From positions 1-64,000 of the forward strand of contig MKUE01000135.1 of the NCBI GenBank assembly GCA_001897675.1: a stretch of 64,000 nt of DNA, in the 5' to 3' direction. How positions within the stretch are numbered: the stretch's first letter is position 1; every line of letters starts with the position of its first letter. The notes under the pieces were generated by a model. That model saw only the letters and a program-made list of their open reading frames with translations. It searched no databases and was not told the DNA's origin. Origin of the DNA: Thiobacillus sp. 65-1059. GTDB lineage: Bacteria > Pseudomonadota > Gammaproteobacteria > Burkholderiales > Thiobacillaceae. The translations under genes were made by a program, and so were the position numbers. Positions 53,078 to 61,447 of this stretch are shown piece by piece.

Positions 53078-54472
53078 TCAAAACGGCAATGCGAGGCCGG
53101 GCGCGGCCTCGTGGATCACGCGGCGGAAGTCGGCCTGGATGCGTTCCAGCGCCTCGGCGGTGTCGGCCTCGAAGCGCAGCACGATCACCGGCGTGGTGTT
53201 GGACGGACGCGCGAGGCCGAAGCCGTCGGCGTATTCGACTCTCAGGCCATCAAGGGTGATGACTTCCTGCGCGCCGGGGAAGCGCGCGGTTTTCTGCAGT
53301 CTGTCCATCAGCGCGTAATGCTCGCCCTCGGCCATCTTGATGTTGAGCTCGGGCGTGTTCAGCGTATCCGGCAGGCCGTGCAGGGTGGCGTCGATGTCGG
53401 CCTGTTTGCTCAAGTATTCGAGCAGCCGCGCGCCGGCATACAGGCCATCGTCGAAGCCGTACCAGCGTTCCTTGAAGAACACGTGGCCGGACATCTCGCC
53501 GGCCAAGAGCGCGCCGGTTTCCTTCATCTTGGCCTTGATGAAGCTGTGGCCGGTCTTCCACAGCAGCGGGCGGCCGCCGCGGTCTGTGATCCAGCCGAAC
53601 AGCTTGCGCGTCGACTTGACGTCGAAAATGATCTCGGCGCCGGGGTTGCGGGAGAGCACGTCGTCGGCGAACAGCATCAGCTGGCGGTCGGGGAAGATGA
53701 TGCTGCCGTCCTTGGTGACCACCCCGAGGCGGTCGCCGTCGCCGTCGAAGGCGAGACCGATCTCGGCATCGCTGGTTTTCAGCGCCGCGATCAGATCCTG
53801 CAGGTTCTTCGGCTGCGAGGGGTCGGGATGGTGGTTGGGGAAGTTGCCGTCGACTTCGCAGAACAGCTCTTCCACCTGGCAGCCCATGTCGCGATACAGC
53901 TTGGGGGCGAAGGCGCCGGGCACGCCGTTGCCGCAGTCGACGATGATTTTCATCGGCCGCGCGAGCTTCACGTCGGAGACGATGCGGGCGAGATATTCGC
54001 CGGCGATGTCGTGCTGGCGGTAGCCGCCGTCGCCGTGCGCGAGATCGTTGTTCACCAGCCGCTCGCGCAGCTTCTGGATGGCGTCGCCCGCCAGCGTCTC
54101 GCCGCCGAGCACCATTTTCAGCCCGTTGTAGTCGGGCGGGTTGTGGCTGCCGGTGACCATCACCGCGCTGTTTGTTTTCAGTTGATAGGCGGCGAAATAG
54201 GTCATCGGCGTGGCGACCATGCCGAGATCGACCACGCCGATGCCGGCCTTGCGGATGCCGCGCGCCAGCGCTGCGGCGAGGTCGGGGCCGGACAGGCGGC
54301 CGTCGCGGCCGATGCAGATTTCCTGCTGGCCGCGCGCCGCCGCCTCGGAGCCGATGGCATGGCCGATGGCTTCGACGATTTCCGGGGTGAAGCTCTTGCC
54401 GACGATGCCGCGGATGTCGTAGGCCTTGAAGATTTCCTTGGGGTATTCCACAACACGCTCCCTGAATGGCAA
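53078..54472 (-). CDS. algC: Phosphomannomutase/phosphoglucomutase
   Basis: 464 residues. Interconverts hexose 1- and 6-phosphates for exopolysaccharide and LPS precursors. Catalytic phosphoserine loop VTGSHNPPDYNG, metal loop AFDGDGDRLG, sugar loop AGEMSGHVFFKERW and phosphate-binding tail ADGFGLARPSNTTPVIVLRFEAD. Near the PNAG-like operon at 55.5-60.1 kb, which would draw on the same hexose-phosphate pool. Confidence 0.95.
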   Translation of the reverse strand: MPFRERVVEYPKEIFKAYDIRGIVGKSFTPEIVEAIGHAIGSEAAARGQQEICIGRDGRLSGPDLAAALARGIRKAGIGVVDLGMVATPMTYFAAYQLKTNSAVMVTGSHNPPDYNGLKMVLGGETLAGDAIQKLRERLVNNDLAHGDGGYRQHDIAGEYLARIVSDVKLARPMKIIVDCGNGVPGAFAPKLYRDMGCQVEELFCEVDGNFPNHHPDPSQPKNLQDLIAALKTSDAEIGLAFDGDGDRLGVVTKDGSIIFPDRQLMLFADDVLSRNPGAEIIFDVKSTRKLFGWITDRGGRPLLWKTGHSFIKAKMKETGALLAGEMSGHVFFKERWYGFDDGLYAGARLLEYLSKQADIDATLHGLPDTLNTPELNIKMAEGEHYALMDRLQKTARFPGAQEVITLDGLRVEYADGFGLARPSNTTPVIVLRFEADTAEALERIQADFRRVIHEAAPGLALPF

Positions 54473-54482
54473 TGCGTCGATT

Positions 54483-55460
54483 TTACCTGCGCCGGATATC
54501 GAAATGCTGCATCAGCCGCCGCGGCAACCAGTCCAGATTGCCGGGAAACGGGCCTGACGGAAACGCGACATGGCCGCCGGCGCCGGGCTGTTCGAGCGTG
54601 ATCGATGGCGAGACGTCGGCCGGGGCCGGCAATGCCGAGGCCGGCAGAAAGGGGTCGTTTCTGGCGTTGATGACGAGGGTGGGAACGCTGACCGATTTCA
54701 GCAGCGGCTTGGACGACACCTTGAGCCAGTAGTCGTCGGCGTCGCGGAATCCATGCAGCCGCGCGGTGACCAGGGTGTCGAATTTGCGGAAGGTGGTGGC
54801 GGCGGCGATTGCCTGCGCATCGAGCAGGCCGGGAAAGCGCGCGGCTTTGTGCAGGGCCTTGGCTTTCAGGGTGGCGAGAAAGCGCGCGGTGTAGACGCGG
54901 CGGTTGAAGCCGCGGTCGAGGCTGCGGCCGGCCGCAGCAAGGTCGAGCGGCGCGGAGACGGCGGCGGCGCGCTCGACCAGCAGATGCGCCGCAGCGCCTT
55001 GTTCGCCCAGCCATTTCAGCAGGGCATTGCCGCCGAGCGAGACGCCGACCGCGTAAACCGGCACATCGGCGTGCCGCGATTTGACGTGGCGCAGGATGCA
55101 TCCGATGTCTTCGCTGTCGCCGGCGAAATAGGCCCGCGGCAGCCGGTTGTCCTCGCCCGAACAGCCGCGGAAATGCGCGGTCGCGCCATGCCAGCCGCGC
55201 GCCCGCACGCGGGCCATGAGGCCGCGCGCGTAGTGACTGTCGGCATTGCCTTCCAGACCGTGGAACAGCACCACGACGGGGCTGCCGGCATGGCCGTCGA
55301 CCCAGTCGAAATCGAGGAAATCGCCGTCCGCCAATTCCAGCCGCTCGCGCCGGCAGGCGACCGTCGCAACGCGGATGAACAGGCTGCTGTAGATGGTTTG
55401 CAAGTGGCCGCCAGGCAGCCAGGGGGGGGCGCGATAAGCCGTTGTTTTCGAGGCGTGCAT
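54483..55460 (-). CDS. YheT-family alpha/beta hydrolase
   Basis: 325 residues. N-terminal YRAPPWLPGGHLQTIYSSL is the YheT hallmark. Nucleophile region YAVGVSLGGNALLKWLG, acid VINARNDPFLP and histidine AGGHVAFPSG complete the triad. Predicted esterase of unknown substrate. Ten bases upstream of algC on the same strand. Confidence 0.92.
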   Translation of the reverse strand: MHASKTTAYRAPPWLPGGHLQTIYSSLFIRVATVACRRERLELADGDFLDFDWVDGHAGSPVVVLFHGLEGNADSHYARGLMARVRARGWHGATAHFRGCSGEDNRLPRAYFAGDSEDIGCILRHVKSRHADVPVYAVGVSLGGNALLKWLGEQGAAAHLLVERAAAVSAPLDLAAAGRSLDRGFNRRVYTARFLATLKAKALHKAARFPGLLDAQAIAAATTFRKFDTLVTARLHGFRDADDYWLKVSSKPLLKSVSVPTLVINARNDPFLPASALPAPADVSPSITLEQPGAGGHVAFPSGPFPGNLDWLPRRLMQHFDIRRR

Positions 55461-55532
55461 GGCGCCGAGTTTAGCAAGGGCGCGCCCTGGAATGCCCGGC
55501 AGCCTGTCCGATTCGGCAAGTCCGGCAGGCGG

Positions 55533-55955
55533 CTAGTGCAGCACCGCGGGCGGAGTCCGGGCGGGGGGCGCGGCGCCCACCTGGAGCGGCGAGGCATGGT
55601 GCAACACCATGCGCCAGCCGTCGGCTTCCTTGCGGTAAATGTTGGTGGCCAGGATCGGCGGGCGCGATTCGGCTTGCCGGCCGATGGCGAGGTGTTCGCG
55701 CACGATGCGGATGACCTCGCCGGCTTCGCGCATTTCATGGGCCAGTTCCGCGCGCACGCGGAACTGGTCGGCGGCCTCGAACATGCTGCGCCAGCCTGCC
55801 GCTACGGCGGCGCGGCCGTTCAGCGGGGCAGCCAGGGGGTGGATGCAGGCGATGTCGTCGCTGCCGGACCAGACTGCCATCATGGCATCCAGCGAACGGG
55901 CCTCGAAGGCGGCGTAGAACGCGGCTTCTGCCGCTTCCGGTGTGGGAAAGCTCAT
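55533..55955 (-). CDS. SnoaL/NTF2-like protein
   Basis: 140 residues with the cone-shaped NTF2-like pattern: EAAFYAAFEARSLDAMMAVWSGSDDIACIHPLAAPLNGRAAVAAGWRSMFE and a later EVIRIVREHLAIG...LATNIYRKEADGWRMVLHHAS. Small ketosteroid-isomerase-like fold, function unknown. Last gene of the PEP-CTERM/PgaCD operon (23 bases after the porin gene). Whether it belongs functionally is unclear. Confidence 0.8.
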   Translation of the reverse strand: MSFPTPEAAEAAFYAAFEARSLDAMMAVWSGSDDIACIHPLAAPLNGRAAVAAGWRSMFEAADQFRVRAELAHEMREAGEVIRIVREHLAIGRQAESRPPILATNIYRKEADGWRMVLHHASPLQVGAAPPARTPPAVLH

Positions 55956-55978
55956 GTTCGGACAGGGTACGGGGGGAG

Positions 55979-57649
55979 TCAGTAGAACCAGATCAGGCTC
56001 GCGCCCAGATTGTTTCGAGTGTAACCGCTTCCCGTGCCCTGCAAAAATGCGCTGCTGTCGCTGCCGCCGGCATAGAGCCGCAACCGCAGATCGGGCGCGA
56101 GGTCGCGCGCGGCTACCAGCTCCCAGGCATAGAGGCCGCTGCTGTCCCCCGGCGTTTCCCACAGCTTTCCCAGCGCCAGCCGGGCTTCCAGCAGCCAGCC
56201 ATAGGCTTCGTGCTCGACGCGTGCGAGTGCCTTCAATTCACGGTAGGTTTCGGGGTTGTAGTAGCCGCGGTCGATATCGGGGACGGAATCGTTGAAACCC
56301 ATGCCCTCGACTCCGACTACCACGCGTGGCTGTGCGGTCATCAACACATGCTCGATCCGCCCGATCAGGCGGGTACGTTGGTTGTCGTCGTCGAAGCGCA
56401 ATAGGGCTGCCCCCAGCGTGGCCCGCCAGCGCGGTGCGAACAGCCAGTCGGTGCTGGCGGACACCTGATTCAGCGTCACTTCGTTCTGCAGCGCGTCGAT
56501 GGTTTCGACGACATCGTTGCCGGCTTCCAGGTCGATGCGCCAGAAATCGGCCGGCAGCCAGCGGCCCTGCAACTTCCAGGCGGCGGTCTGCCAGCCGTTG
56601 TAGTCGCGCACGCCCACGGTCAGCGCGGGCCAGAGCAGCCCCGCTTCGACACTGCCCAGGCGGGTGCCGCCCTTGATCAGCAACTGGCGGCCGTCGATCT
56701 GGTCGCCGTACTGCCCGATGCGGGCGTCGCGCGCGGAAACGTCGAGCCAGCGGCCGAAGCCGAAGCGCTGCTGCCAGCCAAGACTCAGCGCATCGATGTC
56801 GAGATCGTCGCTGTCCCAGGATGATTCGAATTCCGCCCGCAGATGGGACGCGGTTTCCTGGCCGAGCCGGCTGCGCAGGCTGACGGAGTCGTCCCCCGGG
56901 GCATCGCCAAGGGTGGTCAGCGCGGCGTCCTCCAGTCCGGCCCAGCGCAGGGCGGTGGCGCGTTCAGTGCGGGTGTCGCGTGCGAGCGCGGGATCGTTTT
57001 CGATGGCGGCGGCGTACGCGACCACCGCTTCGAAGTGGCGGCCGCTGTAGTTGAGCGCGCGGGCGAGACCAATCTGCGCCTCCTTGTCGCCCGGGTGCGT
57101 ATCCAGGATCGCTCGGTAGCGCAGGATGGCCTCGTCGTGACGCTCGAGCCACGCCAGGATCCGCGCTTCCGCCTTTCGGGCCTTGATATTCGCGGGGTCG
57201 GCGGCGAGCGTGTGGTAGACCTCGAGTGCCGGCAGCAGCTGATTGCGTGCGGCGAGCGATTCGGCGAGGCCGTGCAGGGCTTCGTTTTTCTGTGCCGGCA
57301 CCTGATTCGCCACCTCGCGGAAAAGCGGGATGGCCTCGTCGTGGCAGTTGCCCCAGGCGAGCTGCCAGGCCAGCGGTAGCAGGACGTCGTAGCGCCTGTC
57401 GGGGGCGGCGTCCAGCGCCTGCCGATAGAGCCGTGCGGAGGACGGGTGCCGGTCCCCCCAGGCGTTGACGCGCGCGGCCTCGATCAGCAGGTCGGCCTGG
57501 CCGGGTGGTACGGACACCAGGGTTTCGTAGATGGCGATCGCCTCGGCGTAACGCTTCTGGTCGACGAGTATGCGGGCCTGGGCGAGATCGCCGCCGAAGG
57601 CGGAAAGGCTGAAAGTCAGTGCGGCGAGCAGCGATAGCAGCCTGATCAT
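55979..57649 (-). CDS. TPR plus outer-membrane beta-barrel exporter (PgaA/BcsC-like)
   Basis: 556 residues. Signal peptide MIRLLSLLAALTFSLSAFG, then about six TPR repeats (residues 22-260, for example RYAEAIAIYETLVSVPP). A C-terminal beta-barrel (about 285-556) ends in LGASLIWFY. Shorter than E. coli PgaA (about 800 residues). Its position directly after pgaC points to polysaccharide export across the outer membrane. It overlaps pgaC by four bases. Confidence 0.8.
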   Translation of the reverse strand: MIRLLSLLAALTFSLSAFGGDLAQARILVDQKRYAEAIAIYETLVSVPPGQADLLIEAARVNAWGDRHPSSARLYRQALDAAPDRRYDVLLPLAWQLAWGNCHDEAIPLFREVANQVPAQKNEALHGLAESLAARNQLLPALEVYHTLAADPANIKARKAEARILAWLERHDEAILRYRAILDTHPGDKEAQIGLARALNYSGRHFEAVVAYAAAIENDPALARDTRTERATALRWAGLEDAALTTLGDAPGDDSVSLRSRLGQETASHLRAEFESSWDSDDLDIDALSLGWQQRFGFGRWLDVSARDARIGQYGDQIDGRQLLIKGGTRLGSVEAGLLWPALTVGVRDYNGWQTAAWKLQGRWLPADFWRIDLEAGNDVVETIDALQNEVTLNQVSASTDWLFAPRWRATLGAALLRFDDDNQRTRLIGRIEHVLMTAQPRVVVGVEGMGFNDSVPDIDRGYYNPETYRELKALARVEHEAYGWLLEARLALGKLWETPGDSSGLYAWELVAARDLAPDLRLRLYAGGSDSSAFLQGTGSGYTRNNLGASLIWFY

Positions 57650-58914
57650 GCGTTGCCCTGCGCGAAGTCCTTGCGCACGGTGCGCCAGCGAATGGCCTGC
57701 CGCGACGGGCGGCGGAACAGCCAGGCAAGGGAGATGAAATTGGTCCAAGCGAGAAGCATCCAGTAAACGATCGGGTAGTACACGGCGTACAGATAATATT
57801 TCAGCGTGTCCGGGTCGTAGCGACGATCCAGCAGCGTGCCGGTGAGCAGTTGCAGCATGGCGAGTGTGGCAATCACCATGCCCCACAGATTGGGGATGGG
57901 ATGGGCGCCGACCGGGGGGTAGCCGGCGAGGTAGGACACGATCCACAAGGCAGTCAGGACCACGAAACAGACCGACCACAGGATCGACATGGACGACTCG
58001 ATGAAGATCGGCCACATGCGCCGGTATCGCCAGTGACGCATCACGTCGCGATGCTTGTGCAGCACCTGCATCAACCCGCGTGACCAGCGGCGCCGCTGGT
58101 GCATCAAGCCGGACAGGGTAGATGGCACGGTCATCCATACCAGTGCGTGGGGTTCGTAGCGGATGTCCCAGAAGCGGCGCTGCAGCTTCCAGGTGAGTTC
58201 GATGTCCTCGGTCGGCATTTCGGGCGAAAAGCCGCCCACATCCAGCAGCGCGGACTTGCGGAAGGCCGCCACCACGCCGGACACGGTCATGATTCGCCCC
58301 CAGATGCGCTGTGAGCGGCGCAGCAGGCTGACGATGGAACTGAACTCGATCAGCTGCAGGCGCGCCAGGAAGGTGTCCACGTTCTTGACGCGCGGATTGC
58401 CGGTGACTGCTGCGACGCGCGCATGCTCGAAGTGCGGCAGCATGTGCCGGAGGATGTCCGGCTCGGGTTCGGCATCGGCGTCCATGATCAGCACGATCTC
58501 GCCATTGAGGCAGGGAATGGCGTCATTCAGCGCCATGGCCTTGCCTTCGTTCTGTTGCTTGACGATCAGTCGCACCTCGCCGCGCTGGACGTAGGGTTCG
58601 ACCACGCCGCGCGTGCCGTCGGTGGAGCCGTCGTCGACCACGACCACTTCGTAATCTGGATAGTCAATGGCGGTTGCCGCCGCCAGGGCGTGCCCGATCA
58701 CGCGCTCCTCGTTGTGGGCCGGAATGAGCACGGAAACACCGGGGTAACGCGCGAGCGGAAGAGGTGCGGTCTGCTTTTCCCAGCGATTGCGGAAGAACAT
58801 CGATGTCGTGATCCACATCACGCTGGTCACCATCGGGTAGGCGGCAAAGTACAGAATGGCCAGCCAGTAGAGCCAGCTATGCTGGATGGCGGTGAGTATT
58901 TCGATCAGCGCCAT
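57646..58914 (-). CDS. pgaC: PgaC-like glycosyltransferase family 2 (poly-N-acetylglucosamine synthase)
   Basis: 422 residues. N-terminal helix, then GT2 domain: VSVLIPAHNEERVIG, VVVDDGSTDGT, LIMDADAEPEP (DxD), GGFSPEMPTEDIELTWKLQRR and QRRRWSRG (the processive Q-x-x-RW), followed by three or four C-terminal helices. Builds beta-1,6-GlcNAc-type polymer from UDP-GlcNAc at the inner membrane together with PgaD. Overlaps pgaD by 10 bases. Confidence 0.92.
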   Translation of the reverse strand: MALIEILTAIQHSWLYWLAILYFAAYPMVTSVMWITTSMFFRNRWEKQTAPLPLARYPGVSVLIPAHNEERVIGHALAAATAIDYPDYEVVVVDDGSTDGTRGVVEPYVQRGEVRLIVKQQNEGKAMALNDAIPCLNGEIVLIMDADAEPEPDILRHMLPHFEHARVAAVTGNPRVKNVDTFLARLQLIEFSSIVSLLRRSQRIWGRIMTVSGVVAAFRKSALLDVGGFSPEMPTEDIELTWKLQRRFWDIRYEPHALVWMTVPSTLSGLMHQRRRWSRGLMQVLHKHRDVMRHWRYRRMWPIFIESSMSILWSVCFVVLTALWIVSYLAGYPPVGAHPIPNLWGMVIATLAMLQLLTGTLLDRRYDPDTLKYYLYAVYYPIVYWMLLAWTNFISLAWLFRRPSRQAIRWRTVRKDFAQGNA

Positions 58915-59318
58915 GCGGCTTCGGGATAGGGCTCCACGGATTCGGGGCGTGCGAGGAAGAGCTTCTCGTCCGCTGTGCTGCGGATGGTGATCAGCCGGGC
59001 CTGCCTGAGCGCGTCGAAATCGGCGCGAACCGGGCGTCCAGCCCAGTCCCGCATATACGGCGCGTCAACGACCTGAACCTGCCGGCGTGGGCCCTTGCGG
59101 TTGTAGATGCCGCGGTTGTGCATGACCCAGTAAAGCGTGATCACCGGCAGCACGACCAGGGCGGTTGCAAGCAGCCAGACAATCCGGGAAAGGGAGTTCG
59201 ATCCCTGCTGCAGCACGGCCCACCAAAAACCGCCGAACAGCGCCCAGCCGAATACCACCAGGATGATGTGCCAGGCTACTTGCAGCGGACCCGAGAGCGC
59301 AGGACGCTGGAAGTGCAT
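58905..59318 (-). CDS. pgaD: PgaD-like polysaccharide synthase accessory protein
   Basis: 137 residues. Two hydrophobic helices (LQVAWHIILVVFGWALFGGFWW and IVWLLATALVVLPVITLYW) and then a cytoplasmic tail, the PgaD layout. In E. coli PgaC and PgaD together bind c-di-GMP and become active. It begins three bases after the PEP-CTERM gene. Sequence similarity is low in this family, so the call leans on size, topology and position. Confidence 0.8.
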   Translation of the reverse strand: MHFQRPALSGPLQVAWHIILVVFGWALFGGFWWAVLQQGSNSLSRIVWLLATALVVLPVITLYWVMHNRGIYNRKGPRRQVQVVDAPYMRDWAGRPVRADFDALRQARLITIRSTADEKLFLARPESVEPYPEAAWR

Positions 59319-59321
59319 GGC

Positions 59322-60104
59322 TCAGCGCCGGGTACGGCCGACACTCAGGCCGTACCCGACCAGTCCGGCCAGCATCAGCAGCACGACCGACGGTTCCGGG
59401 ACCGGGCTGGTGTACAGGCTGGATTGCGGCACCACGGACCAATCGTTTGCGCCGGGTACATACCAGGCCAGCTGCACGGCGCCGGTTTCGAGCCGTTCAT
59501 AGGCATCCAGCTGATAGGCGTACAGGCCGGGCGACAGCAGCAGGTCTTCTGCAAAGCCGAGGCGGTCGCGCGGGTTGAGACCGTCCACCTGCAGGCTTTG
59601 CGAGCTGCCGCCCGCCCCGAACAAGCTGAAGCGGAAACCGTCGTCGTACAGTACGCCTAGGTTGTAGGCGCCGGGGGTGGTGATGGCGATGTAACCCCAG
59701 AAGCTGGAGGCCCAGTTGTCCTGGCTGTTTTCAGTCGCGTTGGCAAAGATCGGAGCGAGTTGCGGCGTGCCCCACGCTGTGCCCCATGTGTTGATGAAGT
59801 TCTGGTCGGCGAAATTGATCTGCCCGACGTGTGTGGTGAGCGTCTGCACGATGCCCGGGTCGTCGTTCGGCAGTCCCATGACCTGGGCATGGTCGGCAAG
59901 CCCCCAGATTCCGGTGCCCCAGGACTGGTCGCCGTACAGGCTACCACGCCAGTCGTCGGCAACCTGTACCCAGCGGCTGTTGGCACCGTCGCCGTTCAGG
60001 TAGATGCCATCGAATTGAGGGGCAAGCGGCACGGCATGCACAGGGACGGCGAGGCCGAGCAACAGCGCTGTCGAACAGGCGTTACGCAGACTGAACAGGT
60101 TCAT
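59322..60104 (-). CDS. PEP-CTERM protein with PA14-like domain
   Basis: 260 residues. Signal peptide MNLFSLRNACSTALLLGLAVPVHA. The middle part (about 115-225) has the PA14-type pattern WGYIAITTPGAYNLGVLYDDGFRFSLFG...AYQLDAYERLETGAVQLAWYVPG, usually sugar-binding. The C-terminus has VPEPS, a hydrophobic stretch and GRTRR, the exosortase sorting signal. The mature protein is expected in the extracellular matrix. First gene of the operon, so it is probably the structural or matrix partner of the polysaccharide made by PgaCD. Confidence 0.88.
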   Translation of the reverse strand: MNLFSLRNACSTALLLGLAVPVHAVPLAPQFDGIYLNGDGANSRWVQVADDWRGSLYGDQSWGTGIWGLADHAQVMGLPNDDPGIVQTLTTHVGQINFADQNFINTWGTAWGTPQLAPIFANATENSQDNWASSFWGYIAITTPGAYNLGVLYDDGFRFSLFGAGGSSQSLQVDGLNPRDRLGFAEDLLLSPGLYAYQLDAYERLETGAVQLAWYVPGANDWSVVPQSSLYTSPVPEPSVVLLMLAGLVGYGLSVGRTRR

Positions 60105-60143
60105 CGTGAAAGACTCCGCAAAGGACAGGGTTCAGTGCTGTTT

Positions 60144-60159
60144 AGCAAGACCTGTTCCA
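60144..60159 (-). promoter_or_regulatory. Sigma-54 promoter of the PEP-CTERM/PgaCD operon
   Basis: Minus-strand TGGAAC-AGGTC-TTGCT matches the -24/-12 consensus TGGCAC-N5-TTGCW with one mismatch and exact spacing. It places the start of transcription about 30 bases before the ATG at 60104. Upstream, GCCAC-CTC-GTGGC (60183-60195) is a small palindrome and possible activator site. PEP-CTERM genes in related bacteria are controlled by RpoN with PrsK/PrsR, so this fits. The remaining 60105-60310 gap contains no gene. Confidence 0.75.
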
Positions 60160-60310
60160 GCAGCTGAATTGGCGCTACACCGGCCACCTCGTGGCAATCG
60201 AATGAATTCGCCGGGTATTTGGCCGCCGACAACGTTGAGATTTCGACTGCGTCGCCAGGAAGGCGGCGTCGAGTATCCGGCACGACGCCCGCACGCGGCA
60301 GGCAGTGTGT

Positions 60311-60514
60311 CTAGCGATGGCCGCCGCTGGGCCTGCCTTTCAGGCGATAAAGCGTGCCGCAGTAGGGGCAGAGCGCATCGCCGCGCGATTCGATCGGCAG
60401 GTAGACGCGCGGGTGGGCATTCCAGTCGACGTGCTGCGGCATCGGACAGTGCAGGGGCAGGTCGGTTTCGGTGACTTCGATGACGCGCTGGGTGTTGTCG
60501 TGCCGCTCGCTCAT
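60311..60514 (-). CDS. Zinc-finger (CHCC-type) protein
   Basis: 67 residues. Ligands in LHCPM, WNAHPRVYLPI and ALCPYCGTLYRL give the C-H-C-C set of the NDUFS6-like family. Small zinc-binding protein of unknown function that in betaproteobacteria usually sits directly after ilvE, as here (12 bases). Confidence 0.88.
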   Translation of the reverse strand: MSERHDNTQRVIEVTETDLPLHCPMPQHVDWNAHPRVYLPIESRGDALCPYCGTLYRLKGRPSGGHR

Positions 60515-60526
60515 GCCGCTCTCGCT

Positions 60527-61447
60527 TCAGACCGGGGTGAGCCAGCCGGTGTGGGCAGCGGCGCGGCCATGCACGCAGTCGAAATACATCGCCTGCAGTT
60601 TTGCGGTGATGGGGCCGCGCGTGCCTTCGCCGATGGTCCGGTTGTCGAGTTCGCGGATCGGCGTGACCTCGGCGGCGGTGCCGGTAAAGAAGGCTTCGTC
60701 CGCGGTATAGACCTCGTCGCGGGTGATGCGCTTCTCGATCACCGGCAGGCCGATTTCGCCGGCCAGCTGAACGATGGTGTCGCGGGTGATCCCTTCCAGC
60801 GCGGCTGTGAGGTCGGGCGTGTAGAGCTTGCCGTTGCGAATCATGAAGAAGTTCTCGCCCGAGCCTTCGGCGACGAAGCCGTCGACGTCCAGCAGCAGCG
60901 CCTCGTCGTAGCCGTCGGTCTCGGCTTCCTTGTGCGCGAGGATGGAGTTCATGTAGTTGCCGTTGGCCTTGGCCTTGCACATGGTGACGTTGACATGGTG
61001 GCGTGCGAACGAACTGGTCTTCACGCGGATGCCGCGCTCCAGCGCCTCGGCGCCGAGGTAGGCGCCCCACGGCCAGGCGGCGACGATGACGTGCACCGAG
61101 AGGTTTTTCGCCGAGATGCCCATCGCTTCGGAGCCGAGGAACGCCATCGGGCGCAGGTAGCCGGATTCGAGCTTGTTCTCGCACACCACGGTGCGCTGCG
61201 CTTCGGAAACCGTCGCCTTGTCGAACGGCAGCTTCATGCCGAGGATGTGGGCGGAGCGGAACAGCCGATCGGTGTGTTCCTGCAGACGGAAAATCGCCGT
61301 GCCCTGCTCGGCCTTGTAAGCGCGCACTCCCTCGAAGACGCCCATGCCGTAGTGCAGGGTGTGGGTAAGGACGTGGGTGGTGGCGTCGCGCCAGGGGACG
61401 AGTTTGCCGTCGTACCAGATGACGCCGTCGCGGTCGGCCATGGACAT
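60527..61447 (-). CDS. ilvE: Branched-chain amino acid aminotransferase
   Basis: 306 residues. PLP class IV transaminase, last step of Ile/Leu/Val synthesis. HTLHYGMGVFEGVRAYK, the PLP-lysine-containing KANGNYMNSILAHKEA, GEGSGENFFMI-type loop and EAFFTGTAAEVTPI are family markers. Start MSMADRDGVIWYDG is the normal N-terminus. Confidence 0.97.
   Translation of the reverse strand: MSMADRDGVIWYDGKLVPWRDATTHVLTHTLHYGMGVFEGVRAYKAEQGTAIFRLQEHTDRLFRSAHILGMKLPFDKATVSEAQRTVVCENKLESGYLRPMAFLGSEAMGISAKNLSVHVIVAAWPWGAYLGAEALERGIRVKTSSFARHHVNVTMCKAKANGNYMNSILAHKEAETDGYDEALLLDVDGFVAEGSGENFFMIRNGKLYTPDLTAALEGITRDTIVQLAGEIGLPVIEKRITRDEVYTADEAFFTGTAAEVTPIRELDNRTIGEGTRGPITAKLQAMYFDCVHGRAAAHTGWLTPV

Follow-up and report, generated by a model that had tools for sequence, protein, structure and literature searches.

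A PgaB-less operon pairing a PEP-CTERM gene with PgaD-, PgaC- and PgaA-like genes in Thiobacillus and other Gammaproteobacteria

The pgaABCD systems of Escherichia coli and Bordetella combine a family 2 glycosyltransferase (GT2) synthase with a partner protein of two transmembrane (TM) segments and an export porin made of tetratricopeptide repeats (TPR) and a beta-barrel. In E. coli, the polymer is deacetylated and cleaved by PgaB, a protein linked both to export and to the formation of biofilm, and in Bordetella deacetylation is seemingly unnecessary for transport, as far as the accessible parts of PMC5933820 go. The PEP-CTERM/XrtA (EpsH) system, in the accessible text of PMC1569441, comprises XrtA, EpsI, PrsK, PrsR and PrsT with sigma-54 promoters and an upstream motif, and more than 65% of PEP-CTERM genes form single-gene operons. 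The function of PEP-CTERM proteins, and the polysaccharides that they serve, are a largely open field. Here we describe a locus in a 64-kb window (the whole stretch of DNA analysed, 64,000 nucleotides of contig MKUE01000135.1 from Thiobacillus sp. 65-1059) in which, by contrast, a PEP-CTERM gene with a predicted PA14 fold leads a synthase operon, encoding PgaD-, PgaC- and PgaA-like proteins and no PgaB.

The xag operon of Xanthomonas also resembles pga. In the available part of PMC3609779 it is a second glycosyltransferase operon (xagABC or xagABCD) distinct from pgaABCD, and its genes xagA and xagB contribute to biofilm when rpfG is mutated but not in wild-type cells; unlike the present unit, beside which it is set by description only, it is reported in that part without mention of a PEP-CTERM gene. 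In Aquincola tertiaricarbonis, PepA is likewise a PEP-CTERM protein that depends on RpoN, and when overexpressed it restores flocs to an rpoN1 mutant, the polymer shifting so that the soluble part decreases and the bound part increases; its neighbour is prsT, not a synthase operon (PMC9850573, accessible text). A 2020 survey describes, in its accessible part, environmental bacteria with a pga organisation in which pgaC is rearranged and pgaB and pgaD are undetected (PMC7112194). This organisation may be the present operon type, although the survey's main text, as far as accessible, never uses the term PEP-CTERM. A preliminary description of the window had presented the locus as a variant of matrix formation not yet described; the open-licence literature gave no paper joining PEP-CTERM with PgaC, or exosortase with poly-N-acetylglucosamine (PNAG), but the survey's pgaB- and pgaD-less organisation qualifies the claim.

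The best explanation of the locus, on which our confidence is evenly divided, is a system sister to pgaABCD, with polymer retention falling not to PgaB but to a lectin-like protein that usually has a PEP tail. The probable product of the operon is an exported sugar polymer resembling a known biofilm glue, and a predicted sugar-binding protein in place of a polymer-trimming enzyme suggests a different way of fixing the matrix to the cell. Gene calls and family-model scans gave five tightly packed genes on the minus strand, from 60104 to 55533 of the window:

59322 to 60104, minus strand: PEP-CTERM/PA14 gene, 260 amino acids; hydrophobic N-terminus, PA14 region, and a tail of PEP motif, TM segment and basic residues
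58905 to 59318, minus strand: divergent PgaD-like subunit, 137 amino acids; two hydrophobic (TM-like) segments, profile-profile match to PgaD
57646 to 58914, minus strand: PgaC-like processive GT2 synthase, 422 amino acids; TIGR03937 at 379.9 bits, motifs DDG, DAD, TED and QxxRW
55979 to 57649, minus strand: short PgaA-like TPR and beta-barrel export porin, 556 amino acids; PF21197 (PgaA_barrel) at 33.9 bits
55533 to 55955, minus strand: SnoaL-like gene, given from its ATG (the family-model scan was run from an upstream GTG)

The pgaD-like gene starts 3 bases past the stop of the PEP-CTERM gene and overlaps the pgaC-like gene by 10 bases, the pgaC-like and pgaA-like genes overlap by 4 bases, and the SnoaL-like gene begins 23 bases after the pgaA-like gene; because of these spacings, the sequence suggests a single transcript for all five. 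The gapless order of PEP-CTERM gene, pgaD, pgaC and short porin given in the preliminary description is borne out by the 3-base spacing and the two overlaps, and its span of 55533 to 60159 takes in these four genes but also the SnoaL-like gene, which it did not mention. The likeness to pgaABCD covers the GT2 synthase with its catalytic motifs and, as more distant resemblances, the two-TM partner and the porin. In contrast to pgaABCD, there is no PgaB, the synthase belongs to a distinct clade and does not reach the equivalog cut-off, PgaD is very divergent, PgaA has 556 amino acids instead of 807, the gene order differs, and the PA14/PEP-CTERM gene leads.

The synthase alignment was searched (E up to 1e-90) against 399 genomes of the order and 369 of the class, and matched in 30 and 22 of them, respectively, with the source genome counted in both. 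Scores were bimodal, one group lying at 648-919 bits and the other at 305-372 bits, and the gap separating them was empty. All 9 genomes of the high-scoring group, the source genome included, have PgaD-like and PgaA-like genes, and 8 have a full PA14 gene, the ninth (G706) having a remnant. Among the 43 loci of the low-scoring, canonical group, tblastn with E. coli PgaB found PgaB in 40, and hmmsearch found a PA14 homologue in none. These counts of 9 and 43 keep all rows, including the three canonical loci without a PgaB match nearby (L106, L154 and L156); the genome of L154 (G780) holds a second PgaC locus, L151, with PgaB. A midpoint-rooted tree of 21 unit and 44 canonical synthases (E. coli included) split the two groups with a support of 1.0, and 15 group-specific positions distinguish unit synthases from canonical PgaC. 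By sequence, the unit synthase is thus placed in a clade apart from canonical PgaC, and pgaC-like matches should be checked for their clade before being annotated as PNAG producers.

Against TIGR03937, the PgaC equivalog model, the window synthase scores under the cut-off of 422.3 bits, the next NCBIfam model reaching 109.5 bits; it is 35.8% identical to E. coli PgaC, to which canonical PgaCs are 44-62% identical, and the catalytic motifs are conserved in both groups. The PgaD-like protein has no match in the Pfam or NCBIfam family models. Profile-profile comparison (hhalign) with canonical PgaD, represented by 16 sequences after loci without an evident PgaD frame were left out, gave a probability of 95.6% and an E-value of 1.1e-8 with the same two-segment layout and a divergent tail, and on this comparison it looks like a remote PgaD. 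The porin passes the PgaA_barrel cut-off of 27 bits and also carries TPRs, and scores 67.6 bits with TIGR03939 (cut-off 366.65). From the barrel-model match, the barrel would span residues ~264-556 and the TPR part would be about half that of E. coli PgaA, which covers residues 32-515 in the accessible text of PMC9384988.

PgaB is absent not only from the locus. The GHL13 (PgaB) domain has no match in the whole source genome (2.9 Mb, 143 contigs, estimated completeness 100%), where a pgaB elsewhere would have refuted the preliminary description, and none in any of 19 genomes scanned, in which set G062 and G069 are not proven unit carriers; an E. coli control was positive. For the unit-bearing genomes G284, G254, G706, G596, G716 and G609, PgaB was checked near the operon only. 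Searches with E. coli PgaB at E up to 1e-3 gave no match in any of the 24 unit loci from 23 genomes, window included. Three polysaccharide deacetylase matches were found in the source genome, all on contig C79 among other polysaccharide genes; one is the XrtA-system deacetylase TIGR03006 (340.7 bits) and another a weak, partial PgaB match (49.7 bits, cut-off 321.9). The earlier proposal of an unmodified or differently modified polymer made without PgaB stands as to PgaB, but the unit is more than a pga operon short of pgaB: the synthase belongs to a separate clade, which makes 'unmodified PNAG' a conjecture, and modification in trans is possible because of these other deacetylases.

The four genes are linked, and the linkage is seen from both ends. 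A search with the PgaD-like protein matched 9 of 60 genomes, the source genome and 8 of 35 from the same genus, and none of 24 genomes of other families; the order PA14-PgaD-PgaC-PgaA is kept in all 8 relatives as far as contigs reach. Starting from the PA14 alignment, 17 loci were found in named genomes, 15 of them showing the unit up to the limits of the contig, with the PA14 gene alone in L058 and a contig end in L065; the contigs L049-L051 are also among the 8 relatives. By the Thiobacillus branch we mean the window and the nine closest named loci (L049-L057), labelled as four Thiobacillus, three Hydrogenophilales/Hydrogenophilaceae, one Sulfuriferula (L052) and one only Proteobacteria. 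In total, the synthase unit is present in 23 distinct genomes from this branch, other Burkholderiales and other Gammaproteobacteria (the source genome, 8 from the PgaD search, 8 from the PA14 search, and 2 and 4 from the synthase surveys, L064 and G314 being the same contig). Carriers include Quisquiliibacterium transsilvanicum DSM 29781, metagenome-assembled genomes of Burkholderiaceae and one of Gammaproteobacteria, and by rough gene calls their flanking genes differ. A survey of synteny, suggested in the preliminary description, therefore links the PEP-CTERM protein and the PgaB-less synthase in many genomes and in both directions.

The leading protein of the operon has a PEP motif, a TM segment and a basic tail, and scores 18.7 bits with the NCBIfam PEP_CTERM model TIGR02595 (cut-off 16); it stays below cut-off with Pfam PEP-CTERM (17.9 bits, cut-off 20.7) and Pfam PA14 (14.2 bits, cut-off 24), the latter being passed by one of 10 homologues (L061). 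A structure predicted from 17 sequences has a predicted local distance difference test (pLDDT) score of 84.4, an earlier model from 8 sequences (pLDDT 58.6) having been set aside as poor. Its best PDB match is the PA14 carbohydrate-binding domain of Marinomonas MpAFP (E 6.9e-8, TM-score 0.49 by query and 0.68 by target), which was solved with several sugars; Candida Epa adhesins come next, and Cea1A with N-acetylglucosamine (GlcNAc) lower. The PA14 protein is accordingly modelled with a carbohydrate-binding-type fold, a predicted likeness to PA14 lectins (MpAFP, yeast Epa/Flo flocculins, Cea1) that is joined by an Asp-Asp-Gly motif in all 17 aligned homologues and 3 of 5 further ones. The Asp-Asp pair binds calcium and sugar in flocculins. 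Sequence identity in these fold matches is 11-16%, and unlike the lectins the window protein is tied to a synthase operon, bears a C-terminal sorting tail, and has a sugar binding that is predicted from the model. The floc_PepA model matches the unit's PA14 homologues weakly, below cut-off.

The C-terminal tail is of the PEP-TM-basic type in 16 of 22 homologues and PxT or VPLPA-like in the other six (L062, L063, L064, L098, L099 and L148), all of which sit in genomes having an exosortase; the homologue of L059 extends beyond its tail. An exosortase-anchored protein, as first proposed, is consistent with the exosortase of the source genome and with the PEP tails, but for these six homologues the sorting motif is not PEP. 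At locus L058 (8001-8777), the PA14/PEP-CTERM homologue (44% identity) is not accompanied by the synthase unit; farther downstream, the opposite strand carries a distant GT2 gene. In G706, a 118-amino-acid gene before pgaD (L147, 4503-4147, minus strand) has no sorting tail and scores 17.8 bits with PA14 in hmmsearch; from its sequence it appears to be a PA14 remnant.

As in the PEP-CTERM/XrtA system, the source genome encodes XrtA (362 bits, cut-off 208), EpsI (131.4 bits), PrsK (915.9 bits), PrsR (776.7 bits), PrsT (671.3 bits) and other XrtA-linked proteins, so that the exosortase and the Prs proteins for which a genome-wide search had been proposed are all present, and the lack of an exosortase, which would have refuted the preliminary description, does not apply. 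PEP-CTERM genes above cut-off are found in four places, in one of them only together with neighbours. Two sites upstream of the operon are relevant to its control:

60144 to 60159, minus strand: -24/-12 (sigma-54) promoter TGGAACAGGTCTTGCT, 10 of 12 consensus matches
60233 to 60248, minus strand: candidate activator (enhancer) site AGTCGAAATCTCAACG, 9 of 11 matches to TGTCGA-N5-CAACA

TGGAACAGGTCTTGCT, scored against the sigma-54 consensus, ends 39 bases upstream of the ATG of the PEP-CTERM gene, the preliminary description having put the distance at about 30. Its significance as a single site was rejected, as chance alone accounts for sites with at least 10 of 12 matches in a window this rich in GC (6 seen, ~8.7 expected, both strands). 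The site is convincing because of its footprint in the Thiobacillus branch, not its single-site score: TGG-AC and TTG are invariant across 8 aligned upstream regions amid mostly unconserved surroundings, and the site is kept in all 10 branch loci (the 8 aligned, L052 and L056), L030 having TTGT for TTGC. A sigma-70 start, named in the preliminary description among the findings that would refute it, has no candidate in the sequence, a scan of 55400-60600 giving no sigma-70-like site (0.8 expected). Outside the branch (L059-L064, L098, L099 and L148-L150) no comparable sigma-54 site was found, bar weak candidates of 8-9 of 12 matches, of which that of L099 (9 of 12) is well placed. The operon thus appears sigma-54-driven, as had been claimed, in the Thiobacillus branch only.

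AGTCGAAATCTCAACG sits 73 bases upstream of the -24 box, its coordinates being calculated from this spacer and confirmed in the sequence. Its consensus, which was derived from the same 10 branch loci on which it was scored, is matched at 11 of 11 positions in six of them (spacer of 62-72 bases) and weakly, at 6-7 of 11, in L030, L031 and L056. An activator motif ~63 bases upstream of the sigma-54 motif at PEP-CTERM genes is described in the accessible text of Haft 2006 (PMC1569441); since that motif ends in TTTACA, the TGTCGA-N5-CAACA block may be a variant of it or a different site. The block was rejected as a motif common to the other PEP-CTERM genes of the genome, with L041 and L042 giving only 6-7 of 11 matches. 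Both of these genes have 10-of-12 sigma-54 sites, with start points 50 and 72 bases upstream of the first ATG.

If the locus is such a sister of pgaABCD, the operon would be turned on by sigma-54 together with PrsR or a comparable activator, and the PgaC/PgaD pair would polymerise a poly-GlcNAc-like chain across the inner membrane. The short PgaA would then carry the chain through the outer membrane with no periplasmic deacetylation or trimming. A polymer exported without the PgaB step would require another means of retention. The PA14 protein, after export through its N-terminal signal and exosortase processing of its C-terminal tail, could bind the emerging chain and anchor it on the cell surface or on the XrtA-linked polysaccharide, thereby taking the retention role held classically by partial deacetylation through PgaB; this role is proposed by analogy with PepA, which alters the balance of bound and soluble polymer. 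No earlier case is known to us of one unit encoding both an exosortase substrate and the enzyme that synthesises the polymer served by this substrate. That the unit is a new class of synthase-dependent exopolysaccharide system, with no PgaB step and usually with an exosortase-processed, lectin-like PA14 protein capturing native polymer, is put forward tentatively, our confidence falling somewhat short of even. The pairing of one PEP-CTERM protein with one small synthase system turns the question of what such proteins do, and for which polysaccharides, into a four-gene experiment. The unit also raises the question whether cells can export and retain a Pga-type polymer that has not been deacetylated.

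A polymer chemically other than PNAG, in its sugar or its linkage, would leave nothing for PgaB to deacetylate and make the PA14 protein a polymer-specific lectin; we regard this as possible though rather doubtful. The distinct clade with its 15 positions, the TIGR03937 score below cut-off, the lower identity to E. coli PgaC than that of all 43 canonical PgaCs, and the divergent PgaD tail would fit such a polymer, but no other NCBIfam model comes close to TIGR03937 (379.9 against 109.5 bits) and all catalytic motifs are common to both clades. It is improbable, in our estimate, that the polymer is PNAG deacetylated in trans by a deacetylase of the XrtA cluster, in the manner of a pgaABCD system with a displaced PgaB: the three deacetylase matches on contig C79, with TIGR03006 and the partial PgaB match among them, are set against the lack of GHL13 in 19 of 19 genomes, the location of these deacetylases among other polysaccharide genes, and the placement of PgaB beside PgaC in 40 of 43 canonical loci. 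We give very little credence to the PA14 gene being a chance neighbour that merely supplies a promoter. The promoter does precede this gene in the Thiobacillus branch, but the pairing persists amid different flanks in other families that lack a recognisable sigma-54 site, and the gene is absent from all 43 canonical loci.

Several points weigh against a sister system with PA14-based retention. The polymer, its binding by the PA14 protein and the localisation of that protein are all predictions from sequence, and GlcNAc as the synthase substrate is a guess, because the PgaC equivalog cut-off is not reached by the synthase. The fold match is of moderate quality, weaker matches exist to the PA14 domains of toxins and glycosidases, and the Asp-Asp pair is Asp-Glu (in Asp-Glu-Gly) in L149 and L150. 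For the six homologues with PxT or VPLPA-like tails, exosortase dependence is putative. An exosortase was found in 20 of 23 unit-bearing genomes, a raw share uncorrected for background, and not in G023 (81% complete), G063 and G065. The deacetylases elsewhere in the source genome could act on the polymer in trans. The synthase locus of G706 has a PA14 remnant only, and therefore the PA14 protein may be dispensable to the unit.

A spread of the unit on plasmids was considered and found unsupported: 58 plasmid records match the synthase, all below 60% identity, and among the 15 matches listed there was either an annotated pgaC or no feature beneath the match. The SnoaL-like gene is probably the last gene of the operon and lies outside the conserved core; it adjoins PgaA in L025, L026, L031, L032 and L052, and no SnoaL-like match was found in L028, L056 and L059-L064. 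In L030, a T run at the start of the PA14 gene (~3200) coincides with an apparent frame break, which could be an assembly error or slippage. A phosphoglucomutase/phosphomannomutase gene lies just past the operon, at 53078-54472 of the window, and also nearby in L025 and L028; it could provide sugar precursors.

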